Source: a virus
Virus record (IMG/VR): IMGVR_UViG_3300030108_001120
Coordinates: 1 to 55,190 of that record
Length of the DNA stretch: 55,190 nucleotides
Strand: one strand, 5' to 3'
The first letter of the stretch is position 1. Each line of letters opens with the position of its first letter. This document shows, piece by piece, positions 623 through 49,781 of the stretch. Position numbers and translations under genes: made by a program. The notes beneath the pieces were generated by a model, which had not been told where the DNA came from, did not search any database, and saw only the letters and a list, made by a program, of their open reading frames with translations.

Positions 623-644
623 AACATGACATTTTGTCATATAG

Positions 645-716
<72 letters not shown>

Positions 717-1089: not shown

Positions 1090-1136
1090 TAGTGGTGGCA
1101 GGAGTCGAACCTGCACCTTAGTACCGTAGCACCACT
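1090..1136 (-). other. tRNA-like acceptor/T-arm minihelix 1
   Basis: On the minus strand: AGTGGTG, a 15-base connector, then T-stem GCAGG, T-loop TTCGACT, CCTGC, then CACCACT and an A in the discriminator position. The 7-bp acceptor stem and 5-bp T-stem are both perfect. D and anticodon arms are absent. The loop is identical to that of the tRNA-Met at 645-716. This is the minimal shape recognised by RNase P and other tRNA-processing enzymes. It could be a processing signal, part of the adjacent structured RNA, or a remnant of a tRNA. Confidence 0.55.
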
Positions 1137-10591: not shown

Positions 10592-12148
10592 ATGACAGAT
10601 AAACTTGTTAAAAATCTTAACTTTGGTCAAGAAGCTCAAGGTAAGATATTAAATGGAATAGATAAACTCACAAAAGCTGTTAGCTCCACTCTTGGGGCTA
10701 ACGGTAAGTGTGTTATCTTAGAAGACAATTTAGGTAAACCCACCATAACAAAAGATGGTATTACAGTAGCAGAAAGTATTACACTGCTTGACCCTGTTGA
10801 AAACATGGGTGCAGCTTTAATTAAAGAAGCGGCTCGTAAAACAGTAAAAGAAGCGGGTGATGGTACTACAACTGCAACAATACTAGCTCATTCAATTTTA
10901 CAGCTAGCTAAAAAGCAAGATAATAACAATGTAAGATCGCTAAAAGAAGGTATTGACTCAGCTGTAAACAAAACAATAAAATACTTAGATAAAATAAGTA
11001 TACCTGTTGTAGATGATATGGTAGAACAAGTAGCAACAATATCAGCTAATAATGATAATGAATTAGGTAAAAAAATTGCTGAAGCATTTTTATCAGTAGG
11101 AAAAACTGGTGTTGTAGCTATGGAAGAATCTGATACAGATCAGACGTATATAGAAATAGTAGATGGTATACAATATGAAAAAGGTTTAAAAAACATGAGT
11201 TTTGTTACCGATAAAGCAGGTAAAAAAGCAGAGCTTATAAAACCTTTAGTGTTAATTGTAGAATCTGAAATAGAAAATATACGCAAAATACAAGCTGTAT
11301 TAGAACATGTTATAAAAACTAATAGACCTTTGTTAATTATAGCTGACGCCGATACTAAAGTTCTTGCTGCTTTAGCTATGAATAAAATAAAAGGTAATAT
11401 AAAAATAAATATAGTTGATGCTCCAAATTTTGGTGTTACTAAAAAACAAGTGTTAAATGACATTGCTTTAATGACTGGGGCTACAGTTATTAATGAACAT
11501 TTGGGTGATGATTTAGATTTAATACAACCAGAACATTTAGGTGAATGTATAAAATCAGTAACAACAGAATATGAAACCATTATACAGGTAGCAGGTGTTT
11601 CACCAGAAGTAGAAGATGTTATTGAGCAGGTGAAAAAAGATATAGCTAATGAAACAAAACCTGGCCCTATAACAAGACTTGAAAAAAGATTAGCATTACT
11701 ATCTGCTAAAATAGCCAATGTAAAAGTTGGTGCTAATTCTGACGTAGAATTAAAAGAAAAGAAAGATAGAGTAGAAGATGCTGTTTGTGCTACAAAAGCC
11801 GCGATAAAAGAAGGTATAGTTCCAGGTGGAGGTATAGCTCTACTTAACGCGTCAACAAAAATTAAAGCTGCTAACAAAGCAGAACAAGTTTTATTTGATG
11901 CTATTAAATCTCCTTTTAATATTATACTTAGCAATGCTGGTATAAAAAATGATATACCCATAGTTAAAGAAAAAATGGGTATTGATGTGGTTACAGGAAA
12001 TATGGTAAACATGATTGATAGTGGTATTATTGATCCACTATTGGTTACAAAGAGCGCCCTAAAAAATGCGGCTTCTGTGGCTACAACTATTTTATCAACT
12101 GATTGTGTAATAAATAATATTAGAATACATGAAGGCGATAGGAGATAA
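10592..12148 (+). CDS. groEL: GroEL-type chaperonin (Hsp60)
   Basis: 518 aa, group I chaperonin subunit forming ATP-driven folding rings. Visible hallmarks: TLGANGKCVILEDNLGKP in the equatorial domain, the ATP site GDGTTTAT (residues 89-96, catalytic Asp at 90), and GIVPGGGIALLNAS in the second equatorial part. It is about 30 residues shorter than the bacterial protein and lacks the GGM-rich tail, ending NNIRIHEGDRR. Its 3' end overlaps groES by 20 bases, and the order is EL-ES, the reverse of the usual bacterial operon. Probably folds the capsid or other virion proteins. Codon use matches the surrounding phage genes, so it is not a recent host acquisition. Confidence 0.95.
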   Translation: MTDKLVKNLNFGQEAQGKILNGIDKLTKAVSSTLGANGKCVILEDNLGKPTITKDGITVAESITLLDPVENMGAALIKEAARKTVKEAGDGTTTATILAHSILQLAKKQDNNNVRSLKEGIDSAVNKTIKYLDKISIPVVDDMVEQVATISANNDNELGKKIAEAFLSVGKTGVVAMEESDTDQTYIEIVDGIQYEKGLKNMSFVTDKAGKKAELIKPLVLIVESEIENIRKIQAVLEHVIKTNRPLLIIADADTKVLAALAMNKIKGNIKINIVDAPNFGVTKKQVLNDIALMTGATVINEHLGDDLDLIQPEHLGECIKSVTTEYETIIQVAGVSPEVEDVIEQVKKDIANETKPGPITRLEKRLALLSAKIANVKVGANSDVELKEKKDRVEDAVCATKAAIKEGIVPGGGIALLNASTKIKAANKAEQVLFDAIKSPFNIILSNAGIKNDIPIVKEKMGIDVVTGNMVNMIDSGIIDPLLVTKSALKNAASVATTILSTDCVINNIRIHEGDRR

Positions 12149-12389
12149 TTTAATTATAACACCTATGCAACAAGGTGTAGAAAAAACAAAAGGTGGTTTG
12201 CTTTTAACTCACAGCCAAAGAGAAGACATTAGATTTGAAAAAGCTAAAGTATTAACTCAAGGTGAAGATGTTAAAGGTATAAATGAAGGCGATGAAATTT
12301 ATTTTGATAGTAGAGCAGGCCACAAAATAGAAATAAATAAAGATACATATCACGTTATTAAGTTAAGAGACGTGGTCGTTGTTTTATGA
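12129..12389 (+). CDS. groES: GroES-type co-chaperonin
   Basis: 86 aa, the lid of the GroEL cage. The N-terminal strand (MKAIGDNLIITPMQQG), the mobile loop with GGLLLTHSQ (residues 22-30, corresponding to the GGIVLTGSA loop of bacterial GroES) and the C-terminal strand VIKLRDVVVVL are all recognisable. Slightly shorter than the usual 95-97 aa. Start lies inside the end of groEL (20-base overlap), ensuring paired expression; the stop overlaps the next ATG by 4 bases. Confidence 0.9.
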   Translation: MKAIGDNLIITPMQQGVEKTKGGLLLTHSQREDIRFEKAKVLTQGEDVKGINEGDEIYFDSRAGHKIEINKDTYHVIKLRDVVVVL

Positions 12390-16441: not shown

Positions 16442-16758
16442 TGGCCTTTAAAATAAAAGCTCCATACACAATAGATAATACTCCTGTGTATAGAGTAGAG
16501 TTTAAAGACCCAGCAGTCCATGGTGTTACATTAAATACTGGGTGTATTGTTATAAATAAAAACCTACCCAAGGATGTTGAGGAACAAACTATAAGTCATG
16601 AAAAAGTACACACTGATCAAATAATGAGAGGTGATTTATATTATGATGACAAGTATGTTTATTGGAAAGGTAAAAAATATTTAAGATCTAAAATGAACGA
16701 GGGTGATAAAAATTTACCCTGGGAAAAAGAAGCTTATGCCAAACAAAAAAAAATTTAG
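16441..16758 (+). CDS. Small HExxH metallopeptidase-like protein
   Basis: 105 aa with SHEKVHTDQI (His53-Glu54-x-x-His57), the zinc-binding motif of zincins, and a glutamate downstream (PWEKEAYA, about 93-100) that could be the third ligand. It is close to a minimal zincin core without obvious extra domains. It lies just before the holin; it could act on peptidoglycan or a virion protein. Metal motif is seen; peptidase activity is inferred. Confidence 0.55.
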   Translation: MAFKIKAPYTIDNTPVYRVEFKDPAVHGVTLNTGCIVINKNLPKDVEEQTISHEKVHTDQIMRGDLYYDDKYVYWKGKKYLRSKMNEGDKNLPWEKEAYAKQKKI

Positions 16759-17200
16759 CGAAACAAAAGTCGGAGCGTTTTTAAGTAAAGCAGCTCCAGG
16801 TATATTAGGTACTGTTGGTGATGTGTTACCAGACAGTGGTGTATTTGGTGTAGTAAAAAACTTAATACAAAAAGAACCTGATACGGTGTTGCCACCGGAA
16901 GATAAAGAAAAAGCTATGAAGCTTTTAGAAATGGATATTGTAGAAATGAAAGAAGTATCAAAACGTTGGGCTGCAGATATGAAGTCTGATTCATGGTTAA
17001 GTAAAAACACTAGGCCTATGTCTTTAATATTTCTTACAGTTTCTATGGTTATATTAATATTATTAGATAGTTTTGAAATAGACTTTAGCGTTGCTGATGG
17101 CTGGGTACAGTTGTTACAAACGCTTTTAGTTACTGTTTATGTGGCTTATTTTGGTTCACGTGGAGCGGAAAAATTTAAATCTATAGGTAATAATAAATAA
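16736..17200 (+). CDS. 3TM-type holin
   Basis: 154 aa from the ATG at 16736 (a GTG at 16703 is in frame but less likely). The motif RWAADMKSDSWLSKNTRP before the first membrane segment, then SLIFLTVSMVILILLDSF and LLQTLLVTVYVAYFGSRG, matches the phage/GTA 3TM holin family: an inner-membrane protein that times lysis. Notably it lies before terL, more than 30 kb from the endolysin gene at 49.3 kb. Overlaps the HExxH gene by 23 bases. Confidence 0.8.
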   Translation: MPNKKKFSETKVGAFLSKAAPGILGTVGDVLPDSGVFGVVKNLIQKEPDTVLPPEDKEKAMKLLEMDIVEMKEVSKRWAADMKSDSWLSKNTRPMSLIFLTVSMVILILLDSFEIDFSVADGWVQLLQTLLVTVYVAYFGSRGAEKFKSIGNNK

Positions 17201-46908: not shown

Positions 46909-46913
46909 TATGA

Positions 46914-46970
46914 ATGAAAAAAATACTTGCCCTATCTGCAGTGGTTACTGTGGTTTGTGCTAATTTGTAA
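46914..46970 (+). CDS. 18-aa hydrophobic peptide ORF
   Basis: MKKILALSAVVTVVCANL then stop: a signal-peptide-like or minimal membrane peptide starting 3 bases after the ATG of an alternative 17-codon frame (46910-46963, MNEKNTCPICSGYCGLC, cysteine-rich). Only one of the two is likely to be translated. Too short for certainty; supported by strong hydrophobic bias and position just before the envelope/lysis cassette. Confidence 0.3.
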   Translation: MKKILALSAVVTVVCANL

Positions 46971-46980
46971 TTTAAAAAAA

Positions 46981-47070
46981 ATGAAAGAAAAAATAAAAAA
47001 AGGAATAGACAAGATCCAAAAAGCATGGAATAAATTGCTGTATAAACTAATGTTTAAAAATTATAAATAA
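46981..47070 (+). CDS. Cationic amphipathic peptide, 29 aa
   Basis: MKEKIKKGIDKIQKAWNKLL and then YKLMFKNYK: a short Lys-rich amphipathic helix. Its stop overlaps the ATG of the exported protein (TAATG), so translation is plausible. Composition resembles membrane-active peptides; a role in lysis is a guess. Confidence 0.45.
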   Translation: MKEKIKKGIDKIQKAWNKLLYKLMFKNYK

Positions 47071-48242
47071 TGAAAAAACTCTTTACATTACTATTATTAT
47101 TAATAACTTTTACTACAAGTTCTCAAAATATTTTTAAAGAATTATATAAAGATTTTTTAAAATATGGAACTATATATGTAGCTGGTGATTTAGAAAATCC
47201 AAAAGAAAATCCACCAGATTATTTTGTAAGAACAAATCCTGACGGAAATCTATATACACCACCTGTAGTTGTAGATGGTACTGACTACTATGATTTTGAT
47301 TATCGTTATGGTTTTGGTATACGTAAACTAGCTAGATTTGATTACGAAATAAAAAGTAAAAGCTATTATGATGGAACAGAAAATAATGTAGGTTTAATTG
47401 CTACCAACTCTCCTGTTAAAGGTTTAGAGTATGTATTTCACTATGAAAAAGAAAGATCAAGAGATGAGATATATAAAAACCATAGATACTTTGTTAAGCA
47501 TAGTGGAAAATACCACATTGTTAAGTTAGAAAGTAGAGCACAAGGTAGAATTAATTTTAACTATAAATCAGCTGAAGTTAGAGCTAAGTTACCTATTGGT
47601 GATAAGTTTAGTATATCTGCAGGAGCTATTTATCGTACACATGAAAGAGCGTACGGATATAATCCAATTGAAATATGGTTAAATGAAACAGATAGTAATG
47701 GTTGGCCAATTAATTATTGGTATCAATTAGGTTACAACTATGGGTTTACTGATCAATGGGTAACAATTAATATTGATGGTGAAGAGGTTTTTGATTACTA
47801 CTGGTACGATCCACAAGGTAATCCTGTAGCTTATACTGATTTACAGTTTCGTGATACAGTTTTTGAATCATTAATTAATCGCTACAATAATGAACAATGG
47901 GATTTACTAGATCCGTTTGGTGTAGTTTCACCTGTGGTCGGTTTTGATTTTTATCATTATAAAAATAACTTTTGGCTTCACGCGTTTGGTAGTTATTTAT
48001 TACCATACCACAAGTATGTAGAAGGTGATGTTGATTTTAGTTATTTAAATAGAAACAATTGGGGTCTCGGAGGATTACGACAAGACGCTGATCTAGAGCA
48101 ATGGGAGGACTATCAAGCTGGTATAGTTTTTGGATGGAAACTTAGTAGATCGATAGGTGTATTCTTTGAGGGAGAATATACTAAATTTTGGGATAGTAAA
48201 ATATATAACGGTTCAGTTGGTCTGAACATAACACTTAGATAA
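47070..48242 (+). CDS. Exported outer-membrane-type protein, 390 aa
   Basis: A clear signal peptide (MKKLFTLLLLLITFTTSSQN, cleavage near 18-19) is followed by alternating aromatic/polar strands: FDYEIKSKSYYD, YHIVKLESRAQGRINFNYKS, FSISAGAIYRTHERAYG, VSPVVGFDFYHYKNNFWLHA and, at the C-terminus, GVFFEGEYTKF and SVGLNITLR. This looks like a medium-sized beta-barrel or beta-rich envelope protein of the host outer membrane. Codon use is like the other phage genes. Possible jobs: blocking superinfection by masking a receptor, or aiding lysis. No family recognised. Confidence 0.6.
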   Translation: MKKLFTLLLLLITFTTSSQNIFKELYKDFLKYGTIYVAGDLENPKENPPDYFVRTNPDGNLYTPPVVVDGTDYYDFDYRYGFGIRKLARFDYEIKSKSYYDGTENNVGLIATNSPVKGLEYVFHYEKERSRDEIYKNHRYFVKHSGKYHIVKLESRAQGRINFNYKSAEVRAKLPIGDKFSISAGAIYRTHERAYGYNPIEIWLNETDSNGWPINYWYQLGYNYGFTDQWVTINIDGEEVFDYYWYDPQGNPVAYTDLQFRDTVFESLINRYNNEQWDLLDPFGVVSPVVGFDFYHYKNNFWLHAFGSYLLPYHKYVEGDVDFSYLNRNNWGLGGLRQDADLEQWEDYQAGIVFGWKLSRSIGVFFEGEYTKFWDSKIYNGSVGLNITLR

Positions 48243-48243
48243 A

Positions 48244-48534
48244 ATGGCAGGAGCACCACAAATAGGAGAAGAAACTAAAGTAACGCTAGATCTTAAAACA
48301 ATAGGTATGATAGTAGGTTTTGTAATAACCTTAGCAGGTATGTGGTTTGGCTTACAGTCTGACATAGCAGAAGCTAAAGAACTACCTTTACCAGCAATTG
48401 ATAGAATTGAGTATGATTTAAAAGACGAGTTGATACGTCAGACGATTATGGATACTCAAGAAGATGTAGAAGAAATAAAAGAAACTATTGATAAAATAGA
48501 CGAAAGATTGTACGAGATACAAAAACAAAAATAG
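48244..48534 (+). CDS. Single-TM coiled-coil protein, 96 aa
   Basis: MAGAPQIGEETKVTLDLKTI, then a TM segment (IGMIVGFVITLAGMWFGL, about 20-37) and a charged coiled coil to the C-terminus (DVEEIKETIDKIDERLYEIQ). The layout of an N-terminal anchor and long periplasmic coil fits an i-spanin-like or similar envelope lysis protein. One base separates it from the OM protein gene and from the following gene. Function inferred by layout. Confidence 0.5.
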   Translation: MAGAPQIGEETKVTLDLKTIGMIVGFVITLAGMWFGLQSDIAEAKELPLPAIDRIEYDLKDELIRQTIMDTQEDVEEIKETIDKIDERLYEIQKQK

Positions 48535-48535
48535 T

Positions 48536-48934
48536 ATGAAATACTTAAATATAATTTTAATTTTAATCACATTTAATTCATTTGGTCAAGAGTGGATAAT
48601 AGATGATAACTTTGATAGTAAGATAAATGAAAAGCAAGCTTTTGGTGATGATCAAAACAAACCTGTTATTGTAGAGTTTTACGCTAAGTTTAATGACGCA
48701 AATAAGTTTGAACAATGGTCTGAGTTGAAAGATGTTATATATTATAGAGCAGATATAGCTACGTGCCCAGCTGCTAAAAAAAAATATAAGGTACGTATGG
48801 CCCCAACATTAATTATATTTAAAGACGGTATAAAAGAAATTGTTTTTAAAGCAGGACTAGACTTAATGTTACCGGCAGATTTAAATGAAATACAAGAAGC
48901 GGTTGATGAGGTAAATGCCGCGAGTCAATTTTAA
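48536..48934 (+). CDS. Exported thioredoxin-fold protein, 132 aa
   Basis: A signal peptide (MKYLNIILILITFNSFGQ) followed by a thioredoxin-like order: KPVIVEFYAKFNDANKFEQW in place of the usual WCxxC helix, then YRADIATCPAAKKKYKVRMA and the cis-Pro loop APTLIIFKDGIKEIVFKAGL. The CxxC redox pair is absent; only one Cys (CPAA) remains. So the protein is likely a binding or structural thioredoxin-like protein in the periplasm, not a classical oxidoreductase. Confidence 0.65.
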   Translation: MKYLNIILILITFNSFGQEWIIDDNFDSKINEKQAFGDDQNKPVIVEFYAKFNDANKFEQWSELKDVIYYRADIATCPAAKKKYKVRMAPTLIIFKDGIKEIVFKAGLDLMLPADLNEIQEAVDEVNAASQF

Positions 48935-48935
48935 A

Positions 48936-49085
48936 ATGAAAAAAAGAAAATTAAATAGTACAAATCCTAAATATTATCCTGTAAAGGAAGAAGAAGTAAA
49001 AGAAAAAAAAGAATTAATAGCTACAATACGTAAAGGCAGAAATAGAAATATACGTGTCTATGCTGTGTTTAGCGAAATAGAATAA
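48936..49085 (+). CDS. Small basic protein, 49 aa
   Basis: MKKRKLNSTNPKYYPVKEEE, then a charged middle and KGRNRNIRVYAVFSEIE. One of several small basic proteins at the end of the virion module. One base from the preceding stop. No family recognised. Confidence 0.45.
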   Translation: MKKRKLNSTNPKYYPVKEEEVKEKKELIATIRKGRNRNIRVYAVFSEIE

Positions 49086-49087
49086 TT

Positions 49088-49315
49088 ATGGCTTATATAC
49101 AACCAAGAAACATGTTCTTATATAAAAAAGAAGATAGTGATATATCTATTGATCCTAAGAACAAAGGAAAATTTACAGCATGGGTAAAAAAGAATATGCC
49201 CGGCAAAGACAATTGTGAAGCAGCTAACGCTGTTATGAGAAACAAAGATGAATACTCAGGTAGCGTAGTTAAAATGGCTAACTATGCTAAGAACTTTGGG
49301 TGTAGTAAAAAATAA
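49088..49315 (+). CDS. Small conserved-type protein, 75 aa
   Basis: Contains KGKFTAWVKKNMPGKDNCEA and VVKMANYAKNFGCSKK, a pattern I associate with small proteins common in marine phage late regions. Basic, with two Cys. Role unknown. One base before the M15 gene's ATG (49317) on the far side. Confidence 0.55.
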   Translation: MAYIQPRNMFLYKKEDSDISIDPKNKGKFTAWVKKNMPGKDNCEAANAVMRNKDEYSGSVVKMANYAKNFGCSKK

Positions 49316-49316
49316 T

Positions 49317-49781
49317 ATGGATAGAATTAGTAAACATATAACCTACGCAGAATCAATACATTCAAATACAGCTAAGCGTAGAGGTATAGATAATACACCT
49401 AATCCAACACAGGTTGAAAACATGAGGCTAACAGCTGAAAAAATATTTGAACCATTAAGAGAGTGGGTTGGTGGACCTATAAAAGTTAATTCTTTTTTTA
49501 GATCACCAGAGTTGAATACAGCTATTGGTGGGTCTAAGACGTCTCAACATTGTAAAGGACAAGCAATAGATGTAGACGATGTATATGGTTATAAAACAAA
49601 TGCAGAGATGTATACATGGGTAAAAGAAAATTTAAATTTTGATCAAATGATATGGGAGTTTGGAACAGACATGAATCCTAACTGGGTGCATATATCATAC
49701 GTATCAGAAGAAGACAACAGAAACAGATGTTTAAAAGCCTATAAAGATGATATGGGTAGAACTAAATATAAAGTAATATAG
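49317..49781 (+). CDS. M15-type peptidase endolysin
   Basis: 154 aa from ATG 49317. Zinc/catalytic residues are visible: SQHCKGQAIDVDD (His78, Asp85) and NWVHIS (His125), with Glu114 (IWEFG) as possible catalytic acid, matching M15 D-Ala-D-Ala/L-Ala-D-Glu type peptidases that cut peptidoglycan cross-links. Single catalytic domain, no wall-binding module. It lies with the exported envelope proteins, giving a lysis cassette. An in-frame earlier ATG at 49284 would overlap the previous gene. Confidence 0.8.
   Translation: MDRISKHITYAESIHSNTAKRRGIDNTPNPTQVENMRLTAEKIFEPLREWVGGPIKVNSFFRSPELNTAIGGSKTSQHCKGQAIDVDDVYGYKTNAEMYTWVKENLNFDQMIWEFGTDMNPNWVHISYVSEEDNRNRCLKAYKDDMGRTKYKVI

Follow-up and report, generated by a model that had tools for sequence, protein, structure and literature searches.

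Roughly one in eight phages lacks a recognisable spanin: the survey of Kongari et al. (2018, PMC6139136) gives 13%, including Bacteroides phage B124-14 and Croceibacter phages P2559S/Y, and suggests an outer membrane protein (OMP) as a possible o-spanin. For phages of Bacteroidetes, which are poorly covered by lipobox-based searches, unimolecular spanins (as T1 gp11) are the only spanin type reported (PMC12596118). A conserved gene cassette with an outer-membrane-type protein beside the endolysin, for which cultured flavophages have a candidate fused counterpart, provides a testable case of an OMP acting as o-spanin.

The three core proteins of this cassette are called OM, TMcc and Trx. As in the two-component spanins (lambda Rz/Rz1), they are encoded beside the endolysin and combine a putative inner membrane protein that has a predicted periplasmic coiled coil with a predicted partner in the outer membrane. 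However, the outer partner is a predicted beta-barrel and not a lipoprotein, the third protein is a predicted periplasmic thioredoxin fold, and no sequence similarity was found. With the unimolecular spanins the cassette shares the occurrence in Bacteroidetes phages and, as proposed below, the outer-membrane step of lysis, but this genome has no lipobox protein and the cassette consists of three separate proteins.

The phage and the layout of the cassette

The window, i.e. the whole stretch of DNA that was analysed, comprises 55,190 of the 56,049 bases of a viral record. The TerL encoded there shares 62% identity with that of a Manatee Spring phage and about 43% with those of the cultured Flavobacterium elemo phages, and matches were also found in phages of Cellulophaga, Tenacibaculum and Maribacter. 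Judging from these matches, the source is most likely a podovirus that infects marine Bacteroidetes. The gene order is GroEL/ES, holin, terL, portal, structural genes, a giant gene (3054 aa), the cassette, and the M15 endolysin. The GroEL and GroES genes (10592-12389, plus strand) are kept in every lineage examined. A tRNA-Met gene is located at 644-716 (minus strand), with a weak tRNA-like match close by (1090-1136, minus strand; 22 bits, below cut-off), and the RNA family search gave nothing beyond this one tRNA.

The ORF positions of the original prediction agree with our ORF calls, and the tight coupling that it described is borne out, as the genes are packed head to tail with gaps of 5, 10, -1, 1 and 1 bases. 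The two small ORFs between Trx and M15 were absent from its list. The features are:

46914-46970, plus strand: hydrophobic ORF of 18 aa, left over from a YfiM-like lipoprotein gene after the deletion of about 200 bp
46981-47070, plus strand: p29, cationic amphipathic 29-aa peptide; accessory, clade A only
47070-48242, plus strand: OM, 390 aa, signal peptide and predicted outer-membrane beta-barrel of about 12 strands; core gene
48244-48534, plus strand: TMcc, 96 aa, one transmembrane (TM) segment (about residues 19-37) and charged C-terminal coiled coil; core gene
48536-48934, plus strand: Trx, 132 aa, exported thioredoxin fold without CxxC; core gene
48936-49085, plus strand: small basic ORF, 49 aa; 75 loci, kept in part of clade A
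49088-49315, plus strand: small ORF, 75 aa, a variable insertion; 13 loci
49317-49781, plus strand: M15 peptidase endolysin (Peptidase_M15_3; PF08291, phrog_894)
16736-17200, plus strand: holin (phrog_3427, E 8e-19)

The endolysin matches PF08291 with an E-value of 1.6e-16 (60.8 bits, cut-off 23.2) and phrog_894 with 2.5e-30. According to its homologues it starts at 49317 and not at 49284.

The 18-aa ORF had been taken for a peptide gene in its own right but is what a truncation has left of the start of a gene for a YfiM-like lipoprotein. An intact gene of about 107 aa (VKKILALFAVVFVGCASSQ...) is found at the same place in L002, L003 and L048 (L and G numbers are our labels for records), and the 18-aa ORF consists of its first codons. 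A deletion of about 200 bases is common to the window, L001 and L082. An independent role as a small peptide is thus ruled out for this deletion relic. The 29-aa ORF is indeed cationic and amphipathic, with a charge of +8 and a hydrophobic moment of 0.73, compared to 0.36 in shuffled sequences (none of 2000 shuffles reached 0.73). Relatives of p29 that are 68-100% identical occur in about 56 loci. By its physical features p29 resembles disruptin of phiKT, likewise a cationic amphipathic peptide of small size that a phage encodes near its lysis genes, but p29 has 29 aa, is accessory, and occurs in only part of the clade. As one ORF is a relic and the other is confined to part of the clade, neither is a core part of the cassette.

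The start of the lipoprotein gene is overlaid by a 17-codon ORF in another frame (46910-46963, plus strand), which is also found in L003, L004, L006 and L048. In several relatives it reads MxEK[N/D]TCPxCxGxCGLC, a zinc-knuckle-like pattern, which could simply follow from the conservation of the signal sequence.

The core proteins

Among the 68 called genes, only OM and Trx have N termini of signal-peptide type; two small early genes also encode hydrophobic N termini, but these are TM segments. OM had been described as a beta-rich protein of outer-membrane type with a signal peptide, and this description holds. The signal peptide is a typical flavobacterial Sec signal peptide, and in an AlphaFold2 model derived from 52 sequences (pLDDT 72) about 12 strands are formed, with strand lengths and turns as in an outer-membrane barrel. 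Comparison with the PDB by VIA-align gave CymA (Z 11.8), OmpG (about 11), Omp33 (10.8) and KdgM (10.5). Foldseek TM-scores are low (0.2-0.3), so that our claim is limited to the barrel class. The C terminus carries a beta-signal-like motif, S-x-G-L-N-[IF]-x-L. Because of the VIA-align Z-scores of 10-12, the strand pattern and this beta-signal, together with the signal peptide and the amphipathic character of the modelled barrel, OM is predicted to be an outer-membrane beta-barrel. If the N terminus is periplasmic, loops L1, L4 (91 aa) and L5 (36 aa) lie outside the cell in the model, and the periplasmic turns are mostly short. These three loops hold many invariant residues.

No Pfam or PHROG family matched OM up to an E-value of 0.1; this includes sequence matches of Lom/Ail type, for which a distant kinship of fold is possible. 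The search against PDB sequences gave no match, no homologue was found in annotated phages (one search gave a match at chance level only), and none was found in the cultured relatives. Relatives of OM were found solely in phage contigs or in MAG bins holding such phage contigs. A host origin of OM was considered and rejected: its matches in the genome collection are solely in MAGs of unrelated taxa, and three of the four bins searched carry TerL of this phage group. The OM-bearing MAG contigs are therefore most likely mis-binned phage.

Trx could be confirmed as a signal-peptide-bearing thioredoxin-fold protein without CxxC. It has a Sec signal peptide of flavobacterial type and matches PF00085 (E 4.9e-7; 30.1 bits, cut-off 23.5), and its AlphaFold2 model (pLDDT 83) shows a classic thioredoxin fold with structural Z-scores of 13 to 15.3. 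The CxxC of a redox enzyme is found neither in Trx of the window, nor in 19 aligned relatives, nor in the consensus of 44 sequences; the proline of the cis-Pro loop is kept.

TMcc is, as described originally, a TM/coiled-coil protein, with one TM segment and heptads; its orientation is a guess from flank charge only. Depending on the lineage it has 94-97 or 101-105 aa. This step corresponds to about one heptad (about seven residues), as would be expected of a coiled coil. Neither a homologue in annotated phages nor a match to a spanin family was found for TMcc. A relative that lacks OM and Trx encodes a diverged TMcc-like protein (phrog_20984) beside p29 (L109:7063-7368).

Lipoproteins and spanins

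That no canonical spanin pair is visible was upheld, since there is no credible lipoprotein in any frame of the window. An any-frame lipobox scan of the window and the end piece of the record, for which lambda Rz1 and Bor, T7 gp18.7, and T1 gp11 and Cor were recovered as controls, had an antisense artefact as its sole match. The window thus has neither the lipobox protein expected as o-spanin of a two-component system nor a protein that combines a lipobox with a C-terminal TM segment, as in a unimolecular spanin; it holds only the truncated lipoprotein relic. For this reason the cassette is not to be classed as a spanin. Ten further records were read nearly whole, and the scan found no credible lipoprotein in most of them. 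There is one in G016 (YfiM-like, family c22). Other matches lie in antisense direction, are short, or carry their cysteine at the extreme end, and a few matches in G002, G020, G021 and G034 are unplaced.

A Pro-rich lipoprotein family of about 147 aa (c24) is encoded directly before TMcc or after M15 in L026 (10240-10671) and at about 20 other loci. Together with TMcc, c24 would resemble a separated spanin pair, and its position just before TMcc in some loci means that a lipoprotein partner is occasionally present. As OM persists beside these lipoprotein genes (c22 in G016, c24 in about 20 loci), it is no plain substitute for them.

Conservation and mobility of the gene set

The OM scan of IMG/VR gave 206 relatives, and an independent scan with M15 gave 510. 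Co-occurrence in relatives had been named beforehand as a refutation test for the proposed system, which clearly withstood it. We found OM, TMcc and Trx together in 64 of the 70 endolysin-seeded loci with enough upstream DNA, and a recurrence of this extent shows that the gene set is not due to chance. Two gene orders prevail, counted with inclusion of contigs that were found by both scans. In 85 loci OM comes first (giant gene-OM-TMcc-Trx-M15), while 52 loci have the order TMcc-Trx-OM-endolysin. Of the latter, 44 have M15 as their endolysin and the other 8 have Amidase_2, which has an unrelated fold; a GTA-type/phrog_3427 holin directly follows the endolysin. The second order is probably the older one, as we infer from L112, which joins the giant gene to this order. 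TMcc and Trx are in most cases separated by -4 to +1 bases.

Records of lineages C and D have TerL (66-68% identity), portal and structural genes in common with the window. However, their TMcc-Trx-OM-M15 block is located upstream of terL, whereas in clade A the genes are found downstream of the giant gene. Lineages with a common terL-portal core thus carry the block at different sites, to which it has been relocated as a whole. In C and D records, homologues of the phrog_3427 holin of the window adjoin the OM cassette just downstream of the endolysin. Compared to the window, OM of C and D is 57-71% and TMcc 54-56% identical, while Trx is below the detection threshold used; OM is thus about as conserved as TerL. 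Across the cassettes, whose sequences are related and not independent, identities correlate with r 0.48 for OM-TMcc, 0.53 for OM-Trx and 0.80 for TMcc-Trx.

In G004, G005 and G010 no OM was detected and the M15 gene is kept. A secreted protein of 118-126 aa with a signal peptide is common to the three records in which OM was not detected (L217:10591-10947, L218:1620-1979, L221:7298-7678).

Possible role of the cassette

The original prediction offered outer-membrane disruption or receptor masking. This was the right pair of alternatives, and the evidence leans to lysis, although the 18-aa and 29-aa ORFs that it had included are not core parts. We see about an even chance that the cassette performs an outer-membrane step of lysis which is independent of spanins and has a true outer membrane protein as its outer component. 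The separate holin would give the M15 endolysin access to the wall. TMcc would be anchored in the inner membrane and extend its coiled coil into the periplasm, OM would insert into the outer membrane as a beta-barrel, and Trx, exported and devoid of redox cysteines, may be a periplasmic binding module between or beside the two. Together they would do what is done elsewhere by lipoprotein spanins and would be a functional spanin analogue. Lysis is favoured because of the linkage to an endolysin of either fold, with a holin adjoining in other lineages, the movement as a block, the export signals and the missing lipoproteins. The large outward loops and short periplasmic turns of OM speak against it, being odd for a tether that spans the periplasm. 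Other points against it are the moderate correlation of OM identity with TMcc and Trx, the presence of OM beside lipoprotein genes in some relatives, the M15 gene of the three relatives without detected OM, and the lack of a spanin family match for TMcc.

The same conserved loops, predicted to be outside the cell, and the moderate extent to which OM covaries with TMcc-Trx leave room for receptor masking. OM would then be a late surface protein which blocks receptors or adsorption, thereby stopping superinfection and keeping progeny off debris, while TMcc and Trx have a separate role in lysis or assembly. T5 Llp, lambda Lom and the Lc porin of PA-2 are analogues, being phage-encoded outer-membrane proteins of late or lysogenic regions, and lom of lambda lies in the late region. 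No Pfam relation was found for OM, however, Lom is not coupled to an endolysin, and Llp is a lipoprotein. In favour of masking, the position of OM relative to TMcc-Trx varies, but OM is nearly always linked to these genes and the endolysin, and a protein masking one receptor would be expected to vary more between lineages than TerL-like conservation permits. We consider this main alternative rather unlikely.

Two further readings are improbable. One is lysis timing, for which T4 RI and the T holin are the comparison: OM would sense the outside (e.g. a superinfecting phage), Trx would act as periplasmic relay, and TMcc would be a one-TM partner of holin/antiholin type. The outward loops of OM, the export of Trx, and the single TM segment of TMcc with its coiled coil predicted outside would suit such a trio, as would a similarity of TMcc to holin phrog_1296; yet this match is marginal (E 0.05) and covers the TM segment only, and the family scans revealed no RI-like family. 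In the other, OM would serve uptake or secretion in the infected cell as a porin-like channel, and would adjoin the lysis genes only because both are late. The best structural matches of OM (CymA, OmpG, KdgM) are monomeric channels, although such matches indicate the barrel type only, and this reading is at odds with the constant linkage to the endolysin and TMcc-Trx in rearranged lineages. It is very improbable that OM belongs to the virion, for example as a tail tip or injected pore whose N terminus is signal-like. Its place in clade A, after the giant gene that is probably virion-associated, would fit, but OM has a flavobacterial-type signal peptide and a beta-signal-like C terminus, and in C and D it is located away from the giant gene, before holin and terL.

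Fused proteins in cultured or named relatives

Near the endolysin of cultured or named relatives we found phi38:1 gp084, elemo gp32, and a 207-aa protein of MW202828 (L160, 15491-16114), whose gene is flanked by a Phage_holin_4_1 holin and M15. All three proteins start with a TM segment, followed by a stem and a C-terminal stretch with a strong two-residue alternation, a crude score on which the assignment of these beta ends rests; elemo gp32 ends with ISLGIGIPIF. Similarity among them is weak for phi38:1 gp084 and the MW202828 protein (E 0.001 in one comparison), and elemo gp32 has no clear similarity to the compared fused protein. They resemble the cassette in belonging to the same broad phage group, in their position near the endolysin, and in combining an inner membrane anchor with a predicted OMP-like end. 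Unlike the cassette they are one polypeptide, and no homology to OM was detected. When scanned alike, five OM-carrying records had no such fused protein, nor had the three records without OM.

These findings suggest that one fused inner-to-outer membrane protein may act at the step for which the cassette uses separate proteins. We may tentatively be dealing with a further kind of outer-membrane lysis system, consisting of a beta-barrel, a redox-dead Trx and an inner membrane coiled coil, which is widespread in marine Bacteroidetes phages and has a fused counterpart in cultured flavophages and perhaps in phi14:2. The phi38:1 protein (L215:44184-44783) has a 33% identical relative in this 100-kb Cellulophaga phage (NC_021806, 69233-69778).
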